Assembly (NCBI GenBank): GCA_021292105.1
Contig: CM037864.1
Span: 40,848,514 to 40,912,513 of the forward strand
Direction of reading: 5' to 3'
From: Anadara kagoshimensis
Lineage: Eukaryota > Mollusca > Bivalvia > Arcoida > Arcidae
DNA length: 64,000 nucleotides
The notes under the pieces were generated by a model, which was not told the origin of the DNA, ran no database searches, and saw nothing but the letters and a program-made list of their open reading frames with translations. The position numbers and the translations under genes are program-made. Below, in pieces: positions 14,249-62,828 of the stretch; within the stretch, counting starts at the first letter, position 1, and every line of letters starts with the position of its first letter.

Positions 14249-15955
14249 AACAAGAGGCCCATGGGCCTTAACTCTCACCTGTGACCTTTGAAGCCATGAG
14301 CTTCATTCAAATATCAAAATGATAATTCGGCCAACATTCTAATATACATCCCTATACAAAAAGTTTATAGTTTTTAAGATAAATAACCATTTAAGTACTT
14401 GTTTGTATCTGTGATCTTGACATTTGAACCCATGCTCTTCATTCATAAATCAAAATGACCACTGTGCCAGTACCAACAATATTCTAATATACATGCCTAT
14501 ACAAAAAGTTCATAGTTTTCAAGATAATTACCCATTAAGGTATTCATTCGCATCTGTGACCTTGACCTTTGAACCCATGACCTTCATTCATATATCAAAA
14601 TGATCATTAGGATAATACCTAAATATTCTAATATACATGCCTATACAAAAGGTTTATAGTTTTTGAGATAAATAATCATTTCAGACCTTGTTCACATCTG
14701 TGAACTTGACCTTTGAACCCATAACCTTCATTTATATATCAAAATGGTTGTTAGGCTAATACCTACAATATTCTAATATACATGCATATACAAAAAGTTA
14801 AGTTTTCAAGATAATTTACCATTCAGGCATTCATTCACATCTGTGACCTTGACCTTTGAACCCATGACCTTCATTCCTATATCAAAATGATCTTTAGGAT
14901 AATACCTAAAATATTCTAATATACATGCCTATACAAAAAGTTCATAGTTTTTGAGATAAATAATCATTTCAGTACTTGTTTACATCTGTGACCTTGACCT
15001 TTGAACTCATGACCTTTATTCATATATCAAAATGACCATTGGGCCATTACCTACAATATTCTAATATACATGCCTATACAAAAAGTCTATAGTTTTAGAG
15101 ATAAATAATCATTTCAGTACTTGTTTACATCTGTGACCTTGACATTTGAACTCATGACCTTTAATTATATATCAAAATGACCATTGGGCCATTACCTACA
15201 ATATTCTAATATACATGCCTATACAAAAAGTTCATAGTTTTGCAGATAATTAACTATTTTGGTAAACTTGTACATCTGTGACCTTGACCTTTGAACCCAT
15301 GAACTTAATCAATATATCAAAATGATCGTCATGTCAATACCTACAATTAACCAAAAGTCCTACATCATTATCACCAGAAATGTTTAAAAAATAGCATTTT
15401 TTATCAAAGGTCAAAACTGGGACATGACCTTGACCTTTGACCTTGACATCAATCGGAAGAAAATCGCAAGACAAGATCAACAGTGAAAACGCCATACAAT
15501 TATCTTCAGCCATTATGAAGTTATAACAATAAATGTCTCATTTTAAAAATTACATAATTTTACGCAAAAAACGCGTAACCTATTTTTCGTCCAATTTTCA
15601 TGAAAAACACAATTTTAGTGTATCTAGGTATCCTGAATCCAAATATCCAATCAAAATTTGCCTGCACCTTTTGGTTTCAGAGAAGAAGATTTTTTTGTCT
15701 TTTGGCTATTTATAGTAACGGCAGCCATATTGTTGGGCGTGGTCAAACCCCGAACACAATTTTGAAAGCCTGTTACCCAGGCATAATAATCACCAAGTTT
15801 CATCAAATTTGGCTCAGTAGTTTTGGAGGAGAAGATTAAAATGTAAAGTTTACGCACGACGCACGACGGACGGCGAACGACGAACGATGAACGATGAACG
15901 ACGGACGGTGATAGATAGCAATAGCTCATTTGAGCCTTTCGGCTCAGGTGAGCTA
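14249..15955 (+). mobile_element. Pearl-like element E2
   Basis: Head AACAAGAGGCCCATGGGCC. The core has about eight units of roughly 145 bp containing CTGTGACCTTGACCTTTGAA and ATTCTAATATACATGCCTAT, diverged from but homologous to the E3/E4 monomer. The tail carries GACGGACG-type repeats and a hairpin TAGCTCATTTGAGCC / GGCTCAGGTGAGCTA. The minus-strand open frame at 15651-16154 is a by-product of the tail. Confidence 0.8.
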
Positions 15956-18845: not shown

Positions 18846-20116
18846 CCGTAATCCTTCTATGTATTCGGACGAATTTTAATAATTTCATTTTCAAGTGTCC
18901 GGGAATTTAGAGGAAATATGAAAATTATACACTTGGAAAAATGGGGGTGTCCGAATATTTAGAGTTGTCCGATATTTAGGAGCCGATAATATGTCTCGCT
19001 GCCCTCCCGGTAATGCAAGACACTATCAACGACGATACGCACATGGATATCATCTATAGTATCAATTTTCAAATAAAGTTCATGTTGAAATTACCTTTTG
19101 TGTTGTTTATTTCACAAAAAAGTCGTTTTTTGAAGTGTTTGTTGACCAATAATCATGATCCAATGTGTAATACACATCGAAGGACGCCATTCTTTGTAAG
19201 CAAATCGCGTGATTTTTGTCAGTAGTTCCCACCGTTTGAGGTTCACCGTTACCCCACTTCGTCTTCTGTCACTGTCTACGGTCAAAATTTTTATAATTAA
19301 TAATGGTCAAGAATATTTTTTAGTCAAGAAATTCCACATTTTGTACGATTAAGAACCAGGACATGTATGAATGGGATTCGCCGTGATCAATATAGCTTTT
19401 GTTAAAAATCGATGTTATCACTCACAGAACACAATAGTTTACAAATACATTGTTTTAACTCACGTTTCAAACAATTTTAATCTTAGGAAAAACAATAAAT
19501 ACATCGTAATGGCCATCTTCCCGTTTTTAGACAAATGAAAGTATCAGAAGATCGGGAATTCCCATTAGTTGACATGCACTGAATCAGAAGGGATTCCACA
19601 AGTTTCTCATCCAATGAAATTCATTGATAACGTCACTTCCTGAAAAAATGTCTTTGATATTTGATTTGTGTGCCGACAGAACTTCTGGTCTCGTACGATG
19701 TTTCTTACCCACGATTTTTAATTTCAATCAACTTTCACTTTCAAAGAATATTAAAACACTTAATACAGGTATAGCTATATTCAGCTTACATTAAAAACGT
19801 AAATACATCGTAAAATACTTGTCCTCAAAGTTACAATCATGACTCCATCACGCAAATACACAACGCAACAAACACATAAAAATAACAAATTTTAATGTAA
19901 ATTACCAACAAAACAACAACATTTTTTCTTGTTTTTATTCAATATTAATTATAAGCAATATGTATTGCTTGTTACGGGTGAATTCCAACAAAATCGCGTC
20001 CGGATTTAGAGGCAAAAAAATGCCGTCCGAAATTAGAGGAAATTTGAAAATTATTGAAATTTCAAAATTGGGGTGTCCGAAAACATAGAGTGTCCAAATA
20101 TATAGAAGGATTACGG
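18846..20116. mobile_element. CCGTAATCC-ended TIR element, copy 1
   Basis: Ends CCGTAATCCTTCTATGTATT and, at the right, ATATAGAAGGATTACGG, with TA outside both. GTCCGAA and TTAGAGGAAAT motifs recur in the subterminal regions. The 1.27-kb interior matches 61334-62619 in inverted orientation. No transposase motif is recognised. Confidence 0.85.
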
Positions 20117-26814: not shown

Positions 26815-28852
26815 AACAAGAGGCCCATGGGCCTGATACGCTCACCTGATAACTAATGGCTAGCTGATAGATTTAAAGAAAACATAAATACTAAACCCCA
26901 ATGACTTTTTTTTTCATCATGATAACTGTTGTATCAATACCTACAACATTCTAGTATACATGCCTATACAAAAAGTTAATAGTTTTCAAGGTAATTAACC
27001 ATTTCAGTATTGTTTCACATCTGTGACCTTGACCTTGGAACCCATGACCTTTTTCTATACATCAAAATGATCATTGAATCTATACCTACAACATTCTAAT
27101 ATACATGCCTATACAAAAAGTTTATAGTTTTCGAGATAATTACCATTTCGGTATTGTTTCACATCTGTGACCTTGACCTTTGAACCCATGACCTTTTTCT
27201 ATACATCAAAATGATTGTTGTATCAATACCTACAACATTCTAATATACATGCCTATACAAAAAGTTTATAGTTTTCGAGATAATTAACCATTTCGGTATT
27301 GTTTCGCATCTGTGACCTTGACCTTTGAACCCATGACCTTTTTCTATACATCAAAATGATCGTTGTATCAATATCTACAACATTCTAATATACATGCCTA
27401 TACAAAAAGTTTATAGTTTTCGAGATAATTAACCATTTCAGTATTGTTTCACATCTGTGACCTTGACCTTTGAACCCATGACCTTTTTCTATACATCAAA
27501 ATGATCGTTGTATCAATACCTACAACATTCTAATATACATGCCTATACAAAATGTTTATAGTTTTCGAGATATTTAACCATTTCGGTATTGTTTCGCATC
27601 TGTGACCTTGACCTTTGAACCCATGACCTTTTTCTATACATCAAAATGATTGTTGTATCAATACCTACAACATTCTATTATACATGCCTATACAAAAACT
27701 TTATAGTTTTCGAGATAATTAACCATTTCGGTATTGTTTCACATCTGTGACCTTGACCTTTGAACCCATGACCTTTTTCTATACATCAAAATGATCTTTG
27801 TATCAATACCTACAACATTCTAATATACATGCCTATTCAAAACGTTTATAGTTTTCGAGATAATTAACCATTTCGGTATTGTTTCGCATCTGTGACCTTG
27901 ACCTTTGAACCTATGACCTTTTTCTATACATCAAAATGATCGTTGTATCAATATCTACAACATTCTAATATACATGCCTATACAAAAAGTTTATAGTTTT
28001 CGAGATAATTAACCATTTTGGTATTGTTTCACATCTGTGACCTTGACCTTTGAACCCATGACCTTTTTCTATACATCAAAATGATCGTTGTATCAATACC
28101 TACAACATTCTAATATACATGCCTATACAAAATGTTTATAGTTTTCGAGATAATTAACCATTTCCGTATTGTTTCGCATCTGTGACCTTGACCTTTGAAC
28201 CCATGACCTTTTCTATACATCAAAATGATCGTTGTATCAATACCTACAACATTCTAATATACATGCCTATACAAAAAGTTTATAGTTTTCGAGATAATAA
28301 TTATAATCAGAGGTAAAAAAAATTAGGTCACGACCTTCACAATTGACCTTGACCTCATTTTCAAGATACTAACAAGAAGATGTCAAAACTGAAAACCCCA
28401 TGTCATTATCTGGTCAAATAGTCAAGTTATAACAATTTGAAGCTATTTTACGATTTTTTCAAAATTTGACGCAAAAACGCGTAACCTATTTTTTATCCGA
28501 ATTTTACAAAATGAACAAACTATAGGCTTAAGACCCTAGAGAAGTCAAATATCACATCAGATTTTTTCTCCAATCAGTACTTTCGGAGAAGAAGATTTTT
28601 TAAGATTTTTGCACCCCTAGGTCACCTTGACCTAGTTATGGTAGCCATGGCAACGCCACGAACAAATCTGAATTGCACCGGCCCATATATACTTCTGACA
28701 AAGTTTCATTAAAAACTGTCTGGTAGTTTCAGAGGAGAAGTCGAAAATAGGTGTTAACGACGCACACACGCACACACGCACACACGCACACACGCACATA
28801 CACACGCTGCGCTATGCCATAAGCTCACATGACCTTCGGTCAGGTGAGCTAA
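26815..28852 (+). mobile_element. Pearl-like element E3
   Basis: Head AACAAGAGGCCCATGGGCC. The core at about 26930-28290 has nine 145-bp monomers, each with TGACCTTGACC (the first at 27022 and then every 144-145 bp). The tail at 28300-28852 has a CACACACACG microsatellite and hairpin AGCTCACATGACC / GGTCAGGTGAGCT. Alternate monomers read TTTCACATC and TTTCGCATC from 27166 on, an incipient dimer. No coding sequence. Confidence 0.85.
28641..28654. promoter_or_regulatory. RFX X-box-like palindrome
   Basis: GTAGCCATGGCAAC fits the two-half-site X-box bound by RFX factors. It lies in the tail of E3. The E4 tail has GTAGCCATAGCAAC at 46773-46786. Confidence 0.35.
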
Positions 28853-33105: not shown

Positions 33106-34039
33106 TGCCTTTTTTAACTTAAGCCTCTGGGACCTAATTATTTACTTTTGCATGCTACAATGTACACATCAAAGTCAACAGAGGTATTCCCAATATGTAC
33201 TATAAAAGAACATTTGGTCAAATCCACCCAACTTATTGTGGTTTGTAGGCTGTAGAAGCTAGGTAACCATTAAATCTTCATTTGTAAATTTGAGGCCAGA
33301 AAGAAGGTATTTTACATGTAGACTTTGATTAATACTATAAGATCCACCAGAGGTGGGTGTGCTTAACAAGTGAGCATGGTAGGAGGCTATATAGTGCATG
33401 CTGCACCAAAACATTTTTAAAATTTAAAGACATAATAATGCATTTTGGAGCATTTTAATGAACTAATAAATAATTAAATATAATGTTTTGAAACCCCTTG
33501 GACCCTCCTGAAAATGGGCCTGATTTTGAAACCCCCCTCCCCCTCTCTGGCTTTAGTACTGTAAAGGAATCTATATAAAGTGGTTTTCCTTTTTAAGTTA
33601 TCATGATCCTGTCTGGTTTTATTTCTATTGCCATCAATAGAAGATATTCCCACATTGACTACTCTAGAATTAATTCAGCTTCAAACATACTTTTTTAAAA
33701 ATTAATTTGCACAGGTTATATTCATATGCCTGAATCAAAATATACGTTAAATTTCAACTTTATTTTTTTTTTTTTTTTAAATCATTTACCATTTTTCAAT
33801 ATTATCTTATGTTTTAAGTATGATAAGACACATATTGGCTTCCGTTTTGATAAAAAATTTATACGTAAAAATCTTACCCCTAGGAGATGTGCAGATGCTA
33901 AATGACAAATCGGACTGAAACACTACTTAGGACACCATATTCCCCAGTCACAGTATACTGATACAGAATGAACCAGTTGATATTCTGTCCTTTTAATACC
34001 AAGCACTATCAAGAGTGTTTTATTTCCAATTGCCACCAG
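33106..34039. other. No recognisable gene; repeat fragment at the right
   Basis: 33826-33945 (GGCTTCCGTTTTGATAAAAA...) is homologous to 59417-59530. The rest is unassigned, with poly-T near 33763. Confidence 0.4.
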
Positions 34040-35118
34040 TAAAGAATGGAACAATCTAGAGGATTAGTTCCGAATTCATTCGGAACATCCTCTGGATGTG
34101 AAATGATAAAGGCGACAACTTTTCCCTTTTTAGCAGCATATTCTTGCATCTTGGGAACCTTGAAAACTACTCGATAGATTTTGATAAAAATTTCTGAGGT
34201 TATGGAGTCTAATGCGATCTAGCTATCTAACTTGGTGAAATTTTTGGGAAAAATCGGTATCACACTTAATTTTATGGTCAAAAATGCAAAAAATGGATTT
34301 TTCAGAAAACAGTCAAGTTTAACGCACTCCCGTTGAATAACCGTTCATTGTACGAAAAAGTCGTCCATTGACCGAAAAAAGTTTAAGGTCTCACGAAAAA
34401 AACGGTATTTTTATATTTTTTCTATCTTGTACACAAAATCCACAATAAGTGTTTAAAGTCCACAGTGTATGAACGGAACTGTACGCAAAAAGGTAGCTAC
34501 TGTTCGGCGAAGCGAGAGACAATGAGGTCAACGAGTAAATTGTTTCTTATTTTCTTGTTGCGTAAATAGCAACTCAAAATCAAATACGGTAAATAAGCAG
34601 TTGTTCTCTATCTTCTTCTTGGGCGTATTTGTATGTTTTAGAATCTCAAAATAAATTAAATATTCCATAAAGAACAGTCATGAACACGTATTTGAGCATT
34701 ACTTGGCCTATCTAAAATGTAGATTTATGCTCATTTATTCGAAAATATCCAAGAACTTTAAAATACATGATGAAAACAAACCTTTTTTCAATCAGTCTAT
34801 ATAGTTACAAAATCTACTTTGGCACTGAAACATTCAAAATATTGATTCAAACGACATGACTGACAAGATGTTACTGTACCGGTAGTTTATATTTTGTCTG
34901 TACCGGTAGTGAGTTTCTAGTAACAGAAACACTGTACCGGTAGTTTTATTGTGATACGTTAACTTCAGTCTCTCTGAGATACTGGGGAAATTTCTCTTTT
35001 TTCCAGTCAGAGATTTTTAGTACATGTACTTTTATGCTTATTATGCTACCATATGATTTTATCTAATTAGTTGTATAAGTATTATGGTAATACAGCCACC
35101 ACGCCCTTTTAAACATAA

Positions 35119-35460
35119 CTCGTGTGGTAGCTTAGTTGGTAGAGTGCTCGCTCCGTAAGTGGGAGTCGTTGCTTCGAACCCCGACCAGGTCTGACCCAAA
35201 AGTGGGAAGTGACTGTTTTTTCGCCAACCACTCGGCATTACGAAATGAAAGTCACGGTTCTTTCGGATGGGAACTTAAAATAAACGAGGTCCCGTGTCAT
35301 GGTAGGCTTGGCGCGATAAAAAACCCTTGTAAATTGCCATCGGTGCAACGCACAGACAAATTTATGCACCTTCACCTATAGCTAGCGATTTCTTGATATA
35401 AGTGAAATATTCATGACTGGGACGTAGAACACATTTACTCAACTTCTCTTAAACTTGTGA
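35119..35460 (+). mobile_element. tRNA-derived SINE
   Basis: The head GTGTGGTAGCTTAGTTGG with CTCGCTCCGTAAGTG and GCTTCGAACCCCGACC resembles a Thr-type tRNA. The body contains GAAATGAAAGTCACGGTTC and ATGCACCTTCACCTATAG, as in the copies at 16560-16896 and 52252-52600. It is nested in the CACAGTG element. Confidence 0.8.
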
Positions 35461-35670
35461 TATTGCTTTGGCCAAAAAAAGATAGTCGTAAAATAATATA
35501 CTTTCATTTACACGGATGGTTTCTTACCATTGTTGTTACTGCAAATAATCTTCATACATTTTTATTTTTTAGACATTGAGCTTGAACTTAAGTTTAGAAC
35601 TACTCGCACCTTAAAGTCGTCCTGAGTGTGCACTAGTACAATGAAAACCATAAACTTTAAGTTAACTTAA

Positions 35671-36731
35671 TGTTCTCTGCGCCAGAAGGCGCATAAGGCC
35701 TCAACGCTATCCTTCCATTTTTGTCTGTCCTTCGTTGTTGCTTTGGCCATCTACTTCATCCAGCAGCGTTTTTTTTCCTTTTTCGTCGTTCCCCTCCATG
35801 TGGACTTAGGTCTTCCCTTTTTTCTCTCTGGCTGCCGCCCTAGTTTTGTCTTTCAGTCATTTGTTCCCTCTTTCCTTAGTATATGTCCGAACCAGTTCCA
35901 CTTTCTTCTCCTGATCTCATAGCTTATGTTGTTAAGTCTAGCTGTTTTCAATATTTTTTTCATTAGGTATTTTCTGTTGCCATCTTATTCTTAGTATCCT
36001 TCTGAGGCAATATGTTTGAAAGCCGTTTGTAAGAGTTGTTCATCTTTCTTCGTTCTTTTCCACGTTTTACTTTCATAAAACAATACTGGTCCAACTAAGG
36101 TCTTAAATAGATGCATCTTTGTATTTTTTCCAATATTTCTGGTGTTCCAAATCCTTCTAAGTCTATTTCTTTGAATTTAATTTAATTTAAGCCCTATCCT
36201 TGATTCCTCTTCAGTCATTTTCCTAGTCTTATCATTCAGGTCTTAGAATTTGGAGGATAAAAGTGCTATATCTTCCGCAAACCCAAGACCTAACAATAAT
36301 GTTGTAAAGTCACTTCTTATTTCTCTTCTCACTCCATTTGTTGTTTTCTTTATCATCCAATCTATAACTATTAGAAAGAAACCATGACATTACACATCCC
36401 TGTTTTACACCACTTTTAATAGCGAACCACTCTGATGTTTCATTTTCTTCAATGACAGCACATTCGAATCACTCACATATCCCTCTTATAGCATTAGTGA
36501 TTTTGCTTGTAAACCAATAGCTCTTGGTTATCGTCTAAAGACTCTTCCTGTGCACCGAGTCGAATGCCTTTTCAAAGTCCACAAAGTATGTGTATATTGG
36601 AGTTCTGAATTCATTTGCTTGTTCCAGTATTTTTCTCAGGATGCTCTGTTGTTACTCTCCCTGGTCTAAATCCTGCATGTTCCTTCCTGAGTCTCTTGTC
36701 CACTCCTGTCTTAATCCTTGCAATAACCATA
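35671..36731 (-). pseudogene. LINE reverse transcriptase pseudogene
   Basis: The minus strand carries, in order and in more than one frame, HAGFRPGR, VDFEKAFDSVHRKSL (then a stop), IKSGVKQGCVMSWF, GFAEDIALLSS near 36272 and KGRPKSTWRGTTKKE. These are palm-to-C-terminus motifs of animal non-LTR ORF2. The catalytic pair normally read as ADD is AED here, and several frameshifts and stops are present, so it is dead. The endonuclease and N-terminal RT are absent. The clade cannot be fixed by eye. It lies wholly inside the CACAGTG element. Confidence 0.8.
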
Positions 36732-38285
36732 CAGCTAAATTCCTTGCTAATGACTGATAGTAAACTCACTAGCAAATCTCACGCACATAGATTTATTCTC
36801 AGAGGGTAATAATCTTGTTCTCGTCGCGAATAGTAGCTTATGTTTTATAATCTTTCTATATTATACATGTAGCTATCACCCCCTCAGTTCTTGCAATATG
36901 GAATTTTGAGTAAGAAATTGCCATAAACATGCTACAGTATACGATATATTTTAATGGAATTGCAAAATGTACAATAATTAAGGGGCTATTGGTCTTTAAT
37001 ATTGTCCATAGCATATTTTGCTTCAATAGAAAAACATGATTTATAATTTATAATTGAATTACAAAAAATTCTAGTATCAAACTGAAAATTTCATCTAACT
37101 CGCATGGATGACGTGAAAGAGAAACGTAGCTACCGGTACAGAAACAATACAGATGTTGAAAACTACCGGTACAGTTCTAACTTTAGACCACTGAAGGAAA
37201 ACTTGCTTTTTCAGTGTAAATACGAGTTTTGTAACATTCTGTACACGAGTTAGGGAATCTAAGAATATTTTTCTACATATAGGTACTGATAATGGAACAT
37301 ACAATGTGAAATAATACGTATTTTACATCATTTACCTAGAAGTGAGAAGCCCACGGCTCGACGTTTGATGATGTTCATCATCATATTTATTATATAACTT
37401 GACACTTTTCTGAGAGCATATGGCTACCACTAAAGCTTTATATAGTGAAGATGGATTAAATAAAAGGGATAAACTAAATCCATAAAAATTGAGCTAGAAA
37501 GATGGATAATCAACAACCTCGTTTCTCCCGATACACCTTCTTCTCGCTTCGACGAACAGTAGCTACCTTTTTGCGTACAGTTCCGTTCATACACTGTGAA
37601 GTCGACCCTATCATAAAAATAAAAAAAATCCGCGAACCGGCACGTGCAGACTGGGGGAATGAATTTTCTCAAAAACGCAGTCATTTCTTTAGTTATCAAC
37701 TTGAAAGTCGGTCAAAATATATTTTAAAGTATTAAGAAAATAACGGTATTTTTATATTTTGTCTATGTTTAGTACAAAATTTACAATAACTCTTTAAATT
37801 ATAAATTTCTATTCCCCAAAAATATTGCGCTAAGCTGCACGAGCGAATCTGATTTCTGTTTATGCATATCATTATAATTATCCAATCAGCGGTCAGCATC
37901 TCGGAAATGCCTTCAAGAAGCCATGTTTGACAAACAGTTACGATGGGGAATGTGGCGTTATTAGATGTTATTATGAAGTGTTATATGCCGTAAGAAACTA
38001 AATGGAATGTTTTAACTCATTATGGACAAAAGACACAAGTTTTCAATAGCGGAAAACCATGGTGTATCGTGCTGCCTTCAACTGTAACCCCAATTCAGGT
38101 GGCCAAAGCGGACGACAAAGATTTGTTGTCGAGGAGTTGTGCCGAAATCAATGCGTCAAGCACTTTGAGATGGAGGTGTTCGTACACAACCAGCAGACTG
38201 ATGATGTCAACATAATCGATGTGGTTGATTCCAGATGCAGTGCCTAGATTTGGGCAGCTCAAACAGACGCTAACGAGACGGGGGT

Positions 38286-38303
38286 GGGGGGGGGGGGGGG
38301 GGG
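38286..38303 (+). repeat. 18-base G run
   Basis: An uninterrupted run of about 18 G preceded by GGGGGT; potential G-quadruplex and a likely assembly-length uncertainty. Confidence 0.9.
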
Positions 38304-38692
38304 TTACAACGAAAGAATCCAGCATGGCGCCGGCCCAAAACTTTACAGAAGAGGCGAAAACTTGAGGTAATTTATTTGAGTAAAAGTTTATTTTTGTGAA
38401 AATATTTTTGCGTATTATTATACCAATATCATGGCCAATCTAAAAATATAGCTTCTCAAGTACAGAAAATGACTGCTCCCGAACCAGTTGACACATGTAA
38501 ACACAATCGGTCAAGGTCACAAAAACTAACGATTACACACGTTTGTTCAGTAGTGACAAAAAACACGAAAAATACACTGCAGAAGGTATGTGCATATATT
38601 TACTCAACAATAAGATTTTTAAATAACAAAAATGGTATCGCCGATCGTGACAAAAATGAGAAGTAATGCATGGATTTTAAAATATATTTTAC

Positions 38693-40885: not shown

Positions 40886-43800
40886 AACAAGAGGCCCATG
40901 GGCCTGATACGCTCACCTGATAACTAATGGCTAGCTGATAGATTTAAAGAACACATAAAAACTAAACCCCAATGACTTTTTTCTTTACATCAAAATGATC
41001 GTTGTATCAATACCTACAACATTCTAATATACAAGCCTATACAAAAAGTTGATAGTTTTCGAAATAATTAACCATTTGGGTATTGTTTCACATCTGTGAC
41101 CTTGACCTTTGAACCCATGTCCTTTTTCTATACATCAAAATGATCGTTGTATCAATACCTACAACATTCTAATATACATGCCTATACAAAAAGTTTATAG
41201 TTTTCGAGATAATTAAACATTTCCGTATTGTTTCGCATATGTGACCTTGACCTTTGAACCCATAACCTTTTCTATACATAAAAATGATTGTTGTATCAAT
41301 ACCTACAACATTCTAAAATACATGCCTATACAAAAAGTTTATAGTTTTCGAGATAATTAACCATTTTGGTATTGTTTTGCATCTGTGACCTTGACCTTTG
41401 AACCCATGACCTTTTTCTATACATCAAAATGATCGTTGTATCGATACCTACAACATTCTAATATATATGCCTATACAAAAAGTTTATAGTTTTCGAGATA
41501 ATTAACCATTTTGGTATTGTTTCACATCTGTGACCTTGACCTTTGAACCCATGACCTTTTTCTATACATCAAAATGATCGTTGTATCAATACCTACAACA
41601 TCCTAATATACATGCCTATACAAAAAGTTTATAGTTTTCGAGATAATTAACCATTTCAGTATTGTTTTCCATCTGTGACCTTGACCTTTGAACCCATGAC
41701 CTTTTTCTATACATCAAAATGATCGTTGTATCGATACCTACAACATTCTAATATACATGCCTATACAAAATGTTTATAGTTTTCGAGATAATTAACCATT
41801 TTGGTATTGTTTTGAATCTGTGACCTTGACCTTTGAACCCAAGACCTTTTTCTATACATCAAAATGATCGTTGTATCGATACCTACAACATTCTAATATA
41901 TATGCCTATACAAAATATTTATAGTTTTCAAGATAATTAACCATTTTGGTATTGTTTCACATCTGTGACCTTGACCTTTGAACCCATGACCTTTTTCTAT
42001 ACATCAAAATGATCGTTGTATCAATACCTACAACATTCTAATATACATGCCTATACAAAAAGTTTATAGTTTTCGAGATAATTAACCATTTTGGTATTGT
42101 TTTGCATCTGTGACCTTGACCTTTGAACCCATGACCTTTTTCTATACATCAAAATGATCGTTGTATCGATACCTACAACATTCTAATATATATGCCTATA
42201 CAAAAAGTTTATAGTTTTTGAGATAATTAAACATTTTGGTATTGTTTCGTATCTGTGACCTTGACCTTTGAACCCATGACCTTTTTCTATACATCAAAAT
42301 GATCGTTGTATCAATACCTACAACATTCTAATATACATGCCTATACAAAAAGTTTATAGTTTTCGAGATAATTAACCATTTCAGTATTGTTTTTCATCTG
42401 TGACCTTGACCTTTGAACCCATGACCTTTTTCTATACATCAAAATGATCGTTGTATCGATACCTACAACATTCTAATATACATGCCTATAGAAAATGTTT
42501 ATAGTTTTCGAGATAATTAACCATTTTGGTATTGTTTTGAATCTGTGACCTTGACCTTTGAACCCAAGACCTTTTTCTATACATCAAAATGATCGTTGTA
42601 TCGATACCTACAACATTCTAATATATATGCCTATACAAAATATTTATAGTTTTCAAGATAATTAACCATTTTGGTATTGTTTCACATCTGTGACCTTGAC
42701 CTTTGAACCCATGACCTTTTTCTATACATCAAAATGATCATTGTATCAATACCTACAACATTCTAATATACATGCCTATACAAAAAGTTTATAGTTTTCA
42801 AGATAATTAACCATTTCAGTATTGTTTCACATCTGTGACCTTGACCTTTGAACCCATGACCTTTTTCTATACATCAAAATGATCGTTGTATCGATACCTA
42901 CAACATTCTAATATACATGCCTATACAAAAAGTTTATAGTTTTCGAGATAATTAAACATTTCCGTATTGTTTCGCATATGTGACCTTGACCTTTGAACCC
43001 ATAACCTTTTTCTATACATAAAATGATTGTTGTATCAATACCTACAACATTCTAAAATACATGCCTATACAAAAAGTTTATAGTTTTCGAGATAATTAAC
43101 CATTTTGGTATTGTTTTGCATCTGTGACCTTGACCTTTGAACCCATGACCTTTTTCTATACATCAAAATGATCGTTGTATCGATACCTACAACATTCTAA
43201 TATATATGCCTATACAAAAAGTTTATAGTTTTCGAGATAATTAACCATTTTGGTATTGTTTCACATCTGTGACCTTGACCTTTGAACCCATGACCTTTTT
43301 CTATACATCAAAATGATCGTTGTATCAATACCTACAACATCCTAATATACATGCCTATACAAAAAGTTTATAGTTTTCGAGATAATTAACCATTTCAGTA
43401 TTGTTTTTCATCTGTGACCTTGACCTTTGAACCCATGACCTTTTTCTATACATCAAAATGATCGTTGTATCGATACCTACAACATTCTAATATACATGCC
43501 TATACAAAATGTTTATAGTTTTCGAGATAATTAACCATTTTGGTATTGTTTTGAATCTGTGACCTTGACCTTTGAACCCAAGACCTTTTTCTATACATCA
43601 AAATGATCGTTGTATCGATACCTACAACATTCTAATATATATGCCTATACAAAATATTTATAGTTTTCAAGATAATTAACCATTTTGGTATTGTTTCACA
43701 TCTGTGACCTTGACCTTTGAACCCATGACCTTTTTCTATACATCAAATGATCGTTGTATCAATACCTACAACATTCTAATATACATGCCTATACAAAAAG

Positions 43801-46800
43801 TTTATAGTTTTCGAGATAATTAACCATTTTGGTATTGTTTTGCATCTGTGACCTTGACCTTTGAACCCATGACCTTTTTCTATACATCAAAATGATCGTT
43901 GTATCGATACCTACAACATTCTAATATATATGCCTATACAAAAAGTTTATAGTTTTTGAGATAATTAAACATTTTGGTATTGTTTCGTATCTGTGACCTT
44001 GACCTTTGAACCCATGACCTTTTTCTATACATCAAAATGATCGTTGTATCAATACCTACAACATTCTAATATACATGCCTATACAAAAAGTTTATAGTTT
44101 TCGAGATAATTAACCATTTCAGTATTGTTTTTCATCTGTGACCTTGACCTTTGAACCCATGACCTTTTTCTATACATCAAAATGATCGTTGTATCGATAC
44201 CTACAACATTCTAATATACATGCCTATAGAAAATGTTTATAGTTTTCGAGATAATTAACCATTTTGGTATTGTTTTGAATCTGTGACCTTGACCTTTGAA
44301 CCCAAGACCTTTTTCTATACATCAAAATGATCGTTGTATCGATACCTACAACATTCTAATATATATGCCTATACAAAATATTTATAGTTTTCAAGATAAT
44401 TAACCATTTTGGTATTGTTTCACATCTGTGACCTTGACCTTTGAACCCATGACCTTTTTCTATACATCAAAATGATCATTGTATCAATACCTACAACATT
44501 CTAATATACATGCCTATACAAAAAGTTTATAGTTTTCGAGATAATTAACCATTTCAGTATTGTTTCACATCTGTGACCTTGACCTTTGAACCCATGACCT
44601 TTTTCTATACATCAAAATGATCGTTGTATCGATACCTACAACATTCTAATATACATGCCTATACAAAAAGTTTATAGTTTTCGAGATAATTAAACATTTC
44701 CGTATTGTTTCGCATATGTGACCTTGACCTTTGAACCCATAACCTTTTTCTATACATAAAAATGATTGTTGTATCAATACCTACAACATTCTAAAATACA
44801 TGCCTATACAAAAAGTTTATAGTTTTCGAGATAATTAACCATTTTGGTATTGTTTTGCATCTGTGACCTTGACCTTTGAACCCATGACCTTTTTCTATAC
44901 ATCAAAATGATCGTTGTATCGATACCTACAACATTCTAATATATATGCCTATACAAAAAGTTTATAGTTTTCGAGATAATTAACCATTTTGGTATTGTTT
45001 CACATCTGTGACCTTGACCTTTGAACCCATGACCTTTTTCTATACATCAAAATGATCGTTGTATCAATACCTACAACATCCTAATATACATGCCTATACA
45101 AAAAGTTTATAGTTTTCGAGATAATTAACCATTTCAGTATTGTTTTTCATCTGTGACCTTGACCTTTGAACCCATGACCTTTTTCTATACATCAAAATGA
45201 TCGTTGTATCGATACCTACAACATTCTAATATACATGCCTATACAAAATGTTTATAGTTTTCGAGATAATTAACCATTTTGGTATTGTTTTGAATCTGTG
45301 ACCTTGACCTTTGAACCCAAGACCTTTTTCTATACATCAAAATGATCGTTGTATCGATACCTACAACATTCTAATATATATGCCTATACAAAATATTTAT
45401 AGTTTTCAAGATAATTAACCATTTTGGTATTGTTTCACATCTGTGACCTTGACCTTTGAACCCATGACCTTTTTCTATACATCAAAATGATCGTTGTATC
45501 AATACCTACAACATTCTAATATACATGCCTATACAAAAAGTTTATAGTTTTCGAGATAATTAACCATTTTGGTATTGTTTTGCATCTGTGACCTTGACCT
45601 TTGAACCCATGACCTTTTTCTATACATCAAAATGATCGTTGTATCGATACCTACAACATTCTAATATATATGCCTATACAAAAAGTTTATAGTTTTTGAG
45701 ATAATTAAACATTTTGGTATTGTTTCGTATCTGTGACCTTGACCTTTGAACCCATGACCTTTTTCTATACATCAAAATGATCGTTGTATCAATACCTACA
45801 ACATTCTAATATACATGCCTATACAAAAAGTTTATAGTTTTCGAGATAATTAACCATTTCAGTATTGTTTTTCATCTGTGACCTTGACCTTTGAACCCAT
45901 GACCTTTTTCTATACATCAAAATGATCGTTGTATCGATACCTACAACATTCTAATATACATGCCTATAGAAAATGTTTATAGTTTTCGAGATAATTAACC
46001 ATTTTGGTATTGTTTTGAATCTGTGACCTTGACCTTTGAACCCAAGACCTTTTTCTATACATCAAAATGATCGTTGTATCGATACCTACAACATTCTAAT
46101 ATATATGCCTATACAAAATATTTATAGTTTTCAAGATAATTAACCATTTTGGTATTGTTTCACATCTGTGACCTTGACCTTTGAACCCATGACCTTTTTC
46201 TATACATCAAAATGATCATTGTATCAATACCTACAACATTCTAATATACATGCCTATACAAAAAGTTTATAGTTTTCGAGATAATTAACCATTTCAGTAT
46301 TGTTTCACATCTGTGACCTTGACCTTTGAACCCATGACCTTTTTCTATACATCAAAATGATCGTTGTATCGATACCTACAACATTCTAATATACATGCCT
46401 ATACAAAAAGTTTATAGTTTTTGAGATAATAATTATAATCAGAGGTACAAAAAATTAGGTCACGACCTTTACAATCGACCTTGACCTCATTTTGAAGATA
46501 CTAACAAGAAGATGTCAAAACTGAAAACCCCATGTCATTATCTGGTCAAATAGTGAAGTTATAACAATTTGAAGCTATTTTACGATTTTTTCAAAATTAA
46601 ACGCAAAAATGCGTAACCTATTTTTTATCCGAATTTCACAAAATGAACAAACTATAGGCTTAAGACCCTAGAGAAGCCAAATATCACATCAGATTTTTTC
46701 TCCAATCAGTACTTTCGGAGAAGAAGATTTTTTAAGATTTTTGCACCCCTAGGTCACCTTGACCTAGTTATGGTAGCCATAGCAACGCCACGAACAAATC

Positions 46801-54654: not shown

Positions 54655-55520
54655 CACACTAAGTAAAGAATGGAACAATCTAGAGGATTAGTTCCGAATT
54701 CATTCGGAACATCCTCTGGATGTGAAATGATAAAGGCGACAACTTTCTCCTTTTTTGCCGCATATTCTTGCATCTTGGGAACCTTGAAAACTACTGCATA
54801 GATTTTGCTAAAAATTTCTGAGGTTATGGAGTCTAATGCGATCTAGCTATCTAACTTGGTGCAATTTTTGGGAAAATTCGGGATCATACTTAATTTTGGG
54901 TCAAACATGCAAAAAATGAATTTTTCATAAAAAAATTCTTTTTGACAGTTGTTTATCCCTCCTGCTCAATAACCGTTCATTGTACGAAAAAGTCGTCCAT
55001 TGACCGAAAAAAGTTTAGGATATTGCGGAAAAAACGGTATTTTCATATTTTTTCTATGTTGTACACAAAATCCACAATAAGTGTTCAAAGTTGACCCTAT
55101 CATCTAAAATAAAAAAAATCCGCGAACTGGCACGTGCAGCCGTTGAATGAAAATTTTCCACATTAAACAGCTTGTTTTTGAAACGCCACTTTAGTTATCA
55201 ACTTGAAAATCGGTCAAAATATATTTTAAAGTATTAAGAAAATAACGGTATTTTTGTATTTTTTCCATTTTATGTAGAAAATTCATAATTAATGTTTGAA
55301 TTCAACCCTGTCTGCCAATATAAAAAAGTCCGCCGAAATGCACGTGGTAAATCGTATGATTTCAATGACAAGGTCAAAGTTCAATGCATCACTTAACCAA
55401 TCAGCGTTCGGCAACTCCAACCCTCCCCAACTGCCAAAGAAGCCATTTTGAACTTGAACTACAGACAAAACATGGCGTTGAAACTTGAAAGTTTACTCGA
55501 GGCTTTATCCGATACACTGA
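54655..55520 (+). repeat. GAATGGAACAATCTAGAGG repeat, copy 2, uninterrupted
   Basis: Homologous to 34040-34460 plus 37599-37990. At 55076-55100 it shows the empty target site of the CACAGTG element (GTGTTCAAAGTTGACCCTA). Near 55400 is a CCAAT-box-like AACCAATCAGCG. An ATG at 55471 opens MALKLESLLEALSDTLTDRL, followed at once by a stop that overlaps a possible donor (CT/GTAAGG). Whether this is a first exon is uncertain. Confidence 0.7.
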
Positions 55521-61062: not shown

Positions 61063-61333
61063 GAAAAATGGTAAGCTCATAAAAAACATGTACTTCCAGT
61101 ATTGTGATTATTAATGATTTAGATATAAATGATAGATGGGTAATTACAATATAAAATAATGACATTGTTACATGTTATAGCTGCCCTGTCTGTCAATGTT
61201 ATCAATCATCAACTTAACAATCTATTTCTCTTTTAATATTGGCTTCAAGTAAAAATTTACACAGACAATGCACCATGTGTCAACTAATATGACATTTGTG
61301 GCTGGGGCTATCTATTAGTTTCATGTTCATTTA

Positions 61334-62619
61334 CCGTAATCCTTCTATGTATTCGGACCCTCTATGTTTTCGGACACCCCAATTTTGAAATTTCAATAAT
61401 TTTCAAATTTCCTCTAATTTCGGACGGCAATTTTTTGCATCTAAATCCGGACACGATTTTGCTGGAACTCACCCGGAACACGGGGTACATATTGCTTATA
61501 ATCAATATTGAATTAAAACAAGAAGAAACGATGTTGTTTTGTTGTTAATTTACATTGAAATGCGTTATTTTTATGCGTCTGTTGCGTTGTGTATTTGCGT
61601 GAGGGAGTCATGATTGTAACTTGGAGGACATGTATTTTACGATGTATTTACATTTTTGTAAGCTCAATGAGGCCATACCTGTATTAAGTGCTTTAATTTT
61701 CTTTGAGAGTGAAAGTTGATTGAAATTAGAACTCTTGGCTACGAAACATCGTACGAGACCAGAAGTTCTGTCGGTACACAAATCCAACATCAAAGACATT
61801 TTTTCAGGAAGTGACGTTATCAATGAATTTCATTGGATGAGAAAACTCGTGGAATTCCCTCTGATTCAGTGCATGTCAACTATGGGAATTCCCGATCCTT
61901 CGATACTTTCATCTACCTAAGAACGGAAAGATAGACATTACGATGTATTTATTTTTTTTTTTTTTTTGAAAATGAAAATTGTTTGAAATGTGATTTAAAA
62001 CAATATATTTGTAAACTATTTTGTTCCGTGAGTGATAAATTTGATTTTTTAAGAAAAGCTGTATTGATCACGCCAAACCTCATTCATACATGTCCTCGTT
62101 CTTAGCGTACAAAAATATTGAATTTTCTTGACTGAGAAATATTCTTGACTATTATTAACTATTAAAATTTTGACCGTAGACAGTGACAGAAGACGAAGTG
62201 TGATCACGGTGAACATTAACCGTTGGGAATTACTGACAAAGATCACGCAATTTACTTACAAAAAAATGGCGTCCCTCGATGTGTATTGCACATTGGATCA
62301 TGATTATTGGTCAACAAACACTTCAAATATAACTTTTTTGTAAAATAAACAACACAACAGGTAATTTTAACCTATTCTTTATTTGAAAATTTACATTATA
62401 TATGATATTTATGTGCGTATAGTCGTTGATAGTGTCTTGCATTACCGGGAGGGCAGCGAGACTTGCTTACGATCAGACATCCGGTCCAAAATATCGGACA
62501 ACTCTAAATATTCGGACACCCCCATTTTTTAAGTGTATTATTTTCATATTTCCTCTAAGTTCCCGGACACTTGAAAATGAAATTATTAAAATTCGTCCGA
62601 ATACATAGAAGGATTACGG
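61334..62619. mobile_element. CCGTAATCC-ended TIR element, copy 2 (inverted)
   Basis: Ends CCGTAATCCTTCTATGTATT and ACATAGAAGGATTACGG, with TA on both sides. The interior is the reverse complement of 18846-20116. An open frame at 61720-61920 (66 codons, with HRTRPEVLSVHKSNIKDIF) is largely shared with copy 1 as sequence, but no protein family is recognised. Confidence 0.85.
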
Positions 62620-62828
62620 TAATTCACAATTTTGATTTCACATGTGATGTGTGTAGCCAGCTAAACAGGAGGTGCTCACTCTTTTGGAGCAACTGGCCTT
62701 ACCTCCCTGGTGAAAATGTATATGTTTTTAGTAAATTTGCCATTTATCTAAGTTTTTAATTTGCTTTTAAGATTGTGGTTGGAACATGGACCAGTATGTT
62801 TGTGTTCCATTCTACAGGCAAATATATA

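Follow-up and report, generated by a model that had tools for sequence, protein, structure and literature searches.

A recent, non-autonomous DNA transposon family with CACAGTG ends and 5-bp target duplications in Anadara kagoshimensis

The window analysed here, a stretch of 64,000 nucleotides from the genome of Anadara kagoshimensis, carries an inserted element of 3138 bp, the parts of which are collected in Table 1. The first-pass annotation of the window had described inverted ends of about 57 bp starting CACAGTG, a flanking AAGTC on either side, and a paralogous copy of the host repeat which lacks the insert, and each of these observations is borne out. Across 34456-37603 the junctions read AAGTC, CACAGTGTATGAACGG...CCGTTCATACACTGTG, AAGTC, and in a consensus of 38 copies the left and right ends differ by one mismatch in 57 bp, at position 47 (G or T). 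The flanks of the element, joined after removal of one AAGTC, align with 54959-55302 at 83.2% identity across the junction, with 17 gap positions, and the uninterrupted target within this paralogous site (AAGTT, 55088-55092) is one substitution away from AAGTC. The reading of 34461-37598 as an inserted element is confirmed.

Table 1. Features of the element and of its paralogous empty site (positions in the window).
Feature	Position	Strand	Basis
Whole non-autonomous element, 3138 bp	34461..37598	.	junctions; full-length relatives, e.g. L043, L060, L075
Left target duplication, AAGTC	34456..34460	+	
Left 57-bp terminal inverted repeat, CACAGTG start	34461..34517	+	end consensus
Subterminal motif CTGTACCGGTAG, left 1 of 3	34874..34885	+	
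Subterminal motif CTGTACCGGTAG, left 2 of 3	34898..34909	+	
Subterminal motif CTGTACCGGTAG, left 3 of 3	34932..34943	+	
SINE, presumed tRNA-like start, limits approximate	35123..35446	+	
Segment absent from shorter copies (about 2.7-2.9 kb)	35507..35770	.	
Presumed LINE reverse-transcriptase remnant, broken, antisense, limits approximate	35670..36775	-	antisense frames
Subterminal motif CTGTACCGGTAG, inverted, right 1 of 2	37130..37141	-	
Subterminal motif CTGTACCGGTAG, inverted, right 2 of 2	37163..37174	-	
Right 57-bp terminal inverted repeat	37542..37598	-	end consensus
Right target duplication, AAGTC	37599..37603	+	
Paralogous host repeat without insert, target AAGTT at 55088-55092	54959..55302	+	

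The interior of the element is common to the copies that were compared with the consensus by BLAST. It includes a SINE, whose start we take by eye to be tRNA-like and copies similar to which are also found outside the family, and a stretch of broken antisense frames which, by eye, we take to be the remnant of a LINE reverse transcriptase. The SINE was called neither by ARAGORN, which found no tRNA within the window, nor by Rfam, which gave no match in 33500-38500. As both pieces are present in the copies generally, except in those with internal deletions, they were taken up before the family amplified; the earlier annotation was therefore right to place a SINE and a LINE inside the element, and mistaken in having the element receive them later. 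The five CTGTACCGGTAG motifs behind the ends are all directed inward, are absent from the rest of the window, and retain their 3+2 arrangement in 28 of 38 copies; these motifs may represent binding sites for the mobilizing enzyme. Coding potential was sought in ten frames of the consensus (47-75 codons) which lie outside the SINE and LINE, with no Pfam match above cut-off: nine were without a match at E up to 1, and the tenth reached PF19433 at 15.6 bits (E 0.011), under the cut-off. Two frames of the window likewise had no Pfam match, and a transposase was recognised in none of the frames of the consensus, with which the other copies were compared by BLAST only.

The element belongs to a multi-copy, recent, non-autonomous DNA transposon family of several hundred copies. 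In the source genome (1.115 Gb in 36 contigs), the first 33 bp of the end occur exactly 465 times and their reversed control not once, so that the repetition of the end is not due to chance; the first 24 bp, at up to 3 mismatches, occur 681 times (control 0), from which we estimate roughly 340 elements. Individual copies were examined at exact 24-bp ends among the matches listed, which lie mostly on contigs C1 to part of C4 and constitute a non-random sample of target duplications. Tallied by genome coordinates, with doubly covered places removed, these comprise 61 distinct elements, 40 of them with both ends. Among the matches listed, perfect 5-bp duplications flank 35 of the 40 paired copies and duplications with one mismatch another 2, and a 6-bp match occurs in 0 of the 40; the three exceptions have either no duplication (C1:18553346) or 4 bp only (C1:38292296 and C2:23440084). 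Tabulation over other copies, as suggested by the first-pass annotation, thus makes 5 bp the rule and no other length, and its description of the element as a DNA transposon that is non-autonomous, begins and ends with CAC, and duplicates 5 bp of target holds good in many copies. Divergence from the majority consensus is 4.19% on average (range 2.24-5.87, 38 copies), and the outermost sequence of the end is almost invariant among the copies in that consensus; together these observations suggest that the family spread recently, with its ends under constraint.

The sites chosen for insertion have a composition of their own. Across 56 sites among the matches listed (35 paired copies and 21 single ends), the duplications follow the pattern R-N-N-N-Y, with A or G in first position in 44 of 56 and C or T in last position in 46 of 56, where 47% and 53% were expected. 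The base immediately outside the duplication is C in 44 of 101 flanks, counting both ends of each element, over a background of 16%. Within the duplications, G and C account for 74 of the 280 bases of the 56 sites (26.4%), compared with 33.3% in the flanks.

The interpretation that we favour, and to which we give somewhat better than an even chance, is that of a non-autonomous cut-and-paste family, supplied in trans with a DDE transposase of the broad CACTA/EnSpm-Mirage-Chapaev-Transib (CMCT) clade. In the portion of PMC12730594 that concerns CMCT lineages, duplications of 2-5 bp are reported for these, along with CA..TG termini for most of them, and the CACAGTG family has both. The ends and the duplication length are the two grounds for this placement, in which we have modest confidence. 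They are shared with the clade at large (EnSpm/CACTA, Mirage, Chapaev, Plavaka, ESTA, Lanisha and Transib), genes of which are present in the source genome, with none found between family ends among the elements examined. EnSpm/CACTA duplications are usually 2-4 bp, and the family differs from such members in its longer duplication of 5 bp. Under the CMCT interpretation, a DDE transposase predicted to be encoded elsewhere in the genome would bind the 57-bp CAC...GTG ends, backed by the five inward CTGTACCGGTAG motifs; the element would then be excised and joined, with a 5-bp stagger, to target sites matching (C)-R-N-N-N-Y-(G), and the stagger would leave the 5-bp duplication. A single ancestral unit, with the SINE and LINE remnant already inside it, would have been amplified recently to the several hundred copies now present.

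The predicted enzyme has candidate sources in more than one gene family. Genes for DDE transposases in which C(2)C and H(3-4)H can be read lie elsewhere in the genome, and none was found between the ends of the family in the elements examined. The CACTA-type model PF02992 has 98 matches in the genome, several of which fall into equal-score groups with open frames of 815-918 codons, a pattern that suggests recent activity, and the hAT model PF05699 has 150 scored matches among 724 candidates. On contigs C1-C3, the number of matches within 10 kb of the 86 listed ends is 0 of 41 for hAT, 0 of 21 for the CACTA type, and 0 of 11 for RAG1-like genes. An autonomous copy between the same ends, the discovery of which had been proposed as a check on the original reading, was sought among the 61 distinct elements touched; none was found, be it with a RAG1L transposase or, as the case which that annotation had set against itself, with a transposase of another superfamily. 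Long spans that might have been autonomous copies (8.9 kb at L047, 4.9 kb at L004/L085, 4.4 kb at L065, 4.3 kb at L066, and 3.8 kb at L042) are ordinary copies with insertions, of which that in L065 has frames that resemble, by eye, those of a reverse transcriptase. L020/L076, considered as a divergent autonomous end, has only 49 bp in common with the family, followed by a minisatellite and no gene. A minisatellite of units resembling GACGCATAATGTCCAAAC occupies L020:1534-1924 and L084:3619-3878 (contig C1); in one locus it follows immediately upon the outermost 45-49 bp of the end. Sites with the outer 16 bp alone and the next three bases different numbered 0 (reversed control, 1 and 1), and a full-text literature search for the end sequence, with 12, 14, and 16 letters, returned nothing but an unrelated paper.

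Searched with the Pfam model of RAG1, as distinct from a Transib model, the genome gives one match, at 30.8 bits with a cut-off of 25. The corresponding open frame of 825 codons (L080:7451-9928, minus strand of contig C8) belongs to a distant RAG1-like DDE family: in the stretch of residues 584-716 its product can be matched to RAG1 structures in the PDB (best E 2.6e-5), and the whole protein is assigned to no Pfam family by hmmscan at E up to 1. We rejected this locus as the source of the enzyme, as the surrounding 18 kb contain no such ends, and TIR/TSD pairs there are only weak. An open frame of 714 codons at L083:1318-3462 is a relative of L080 (28% identity), for which a search of the PDB at E up to 10 gave nothing and Pfam gave no match close to its cut-off; the stretch in which it lies, 5 kb or more in length, is found near-identical at four places, itself included. 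Judging the motifs by eye, L080 and L083 have D, D, C(2)C, H(4)H, and E positions in common, a pattern described for the CMCT clade in the part of PMC12730594 that deals with it. The L080 protein finds 235 candidate places in the genome, 55 of them scored. One RAG1-like fragment (C6:30867555), considered as a partner, starts 112 bp outside the end of an ordinary element, and because the gene lies outside that element its proximity is treated as coincidence. Taken together, these comparisons show that the genome contains distant RAG1-like DDE genes; they are not evidence that such genes move the CACAGTG family.

A second transposon family with CAC ends came to light within the first. Nested in the family copy at L047 on contig C1 is an element of 5820 bp (L047:2654-8473), with inverted ends of about 790 bp (87.7% identity) starting CACGGGGGTAATCC, broken reverse-transcriptase-like frames, and a 5-bp duplication, GAAAA, seen in this one copy. 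Its ends number 628 genome-wide at up to 2 mismatches (control 0). In one copy of 4.7 kb, the middle 2 kb were examined and a transposase proper to this family was not recognised; the region holds only repeats and what we take, by eye, to be a Harbinger-like fragment. The combination of CAC ends with a 5-bp duplication is accordingly not confined to a single family in this genome, the second being known from one duplication. In the window itself, arrays of a repeat of ~145 bp (14277-15890, 26934-28232, and 40989-46364) also match the interior of this second family. Two more inverted-repeat pairs, with related ends (CCGTAATCCTTCTATGTATTCGGA) and each 1.3 kb apart, are found at 61332-62621 and 18846-20116.

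Against the CMCT placement in its broad form must be weighed the narrower proposal of the first-pass annotation, that the element is a non-autonomous Transib or RAG-like (ProtoRAG-type) transposon, for which a RAG1-type transposase would cut at the CACAGTG heptamer and insert with a 5-bp stagger. Much of what inspired this proposal stands, namely the CAC start, a heptamer exactly that of the RSS consensus, the 5-bp duplications, and the non-autonomous structure, and a distant RAG1-like DDE family may be added from the source genome. However, the link to RAG is lowered by three tests, of target composition, end consensus, and nonamer. The duplications of ProtoRAG, Transib, and RAG are reported to favour GC in the relevant section of PMC8289069, and the AT-rich duplications of the present family therefore count against a Transib or RAG-like identity. 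The end of the element, CACAGTGTATGAACGGA, agrees with the protostome RAG-like TIR consensus given in an extract of PMC7204232 (CACTWMCAAACKTYKBB) only as far as CAC, and has no AAA at positions 8-10. As for the nonamer-like motif that had been noticed 17 bp after the heptamer, GCAAAAAGG, its best match at that spacing is 6 of 9, a score that 47% of shuffles reach or exceed, which is the level of chance. Only some Transib/RAG-like members have a block resembling the nonamer, spaced at 12/23 or about 20-22 bp, and spacings of 20-22 or 12/23, rather than 17 bp, are those which a legend in PMC8355894 gives for Transib. Further points against this proposal are that the lone match to the RAG1 model is weak, belongs to a protein without Pfam assignment, and has no family ends around it, and that a survey of molluscs, in the part of PMC10294476 which presents the counts, includes one Transib among 14,275 DDE elements. 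Between the ends of the 61 elements touched, no RAG1L/RAG2L or Transib gene was recognised, the RAG1 model being the one searched. A RAG link for the CACAGTG family is thus unproven, and we consider a Transib or RAG-like element proper an unlikely, minority option within the CMCT clade.

Two other explanations depart further from that clade or from what has been described of it. A hAT element of the hAT5 type, likewise non-autonomous, would share with the family its 5-bp duplications, which are described for hAT5 in the corresponding part of PMC12730594. Genes of the hAT type are, as noted above, plentiful in the source genome. The ends of hAT elements usually follow YARNG, from which the terminal CACAG departs, although this is the general hAT consensus and may not be that of hAT5; as no hAT match on C1-C3 lies near a listed end either, we regard a hAT5 origin as improbable. 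It is also conceivable, and to our minds very doubtful, that an undescribed DDE lineage, which duplicates 5 bp at AT-rich R-N-N-N-Y sites, serves at least two CAC-ended families in this genome. The abundance of the second family, its CAC ends and its 5-bp duplication would agree with such a lineage, as would the fact that neither family is tied to any described enzyme, but no transposase for it was found in the copies examined, the duplication of the second family is known from one copy only, and a new superfamily is not required so far. A more specific conjecture, which we think rather unlikely to hold, would place a recently active, undescribed lineage within the RAG1/Transib/CACTA clade. 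This lineage would pair ends that carry the V(D)J heptamer CACAGTG in its exact form with a 5-bp stagger and an AT-rich R-N-N-N-Y target, and two or more high-copy families (with CACAGTG and with CACGGGGG ends) would depend upon it.

We therefore retain the broad CMCT clade as the probable home of the enzyme, and caution that CACAGTG ends and 5-bp duplications alone do not diagnose a relative of RAG. At present, what A. kagoshimensis offers is a well-documented non-autonomous family. Should the enzyme turn out to belong to the Transib or RAG-like transposases, then these several hundred recent copies would richly document, from nature, the evolution of RAG-type ends and targets outside the vertebrates.
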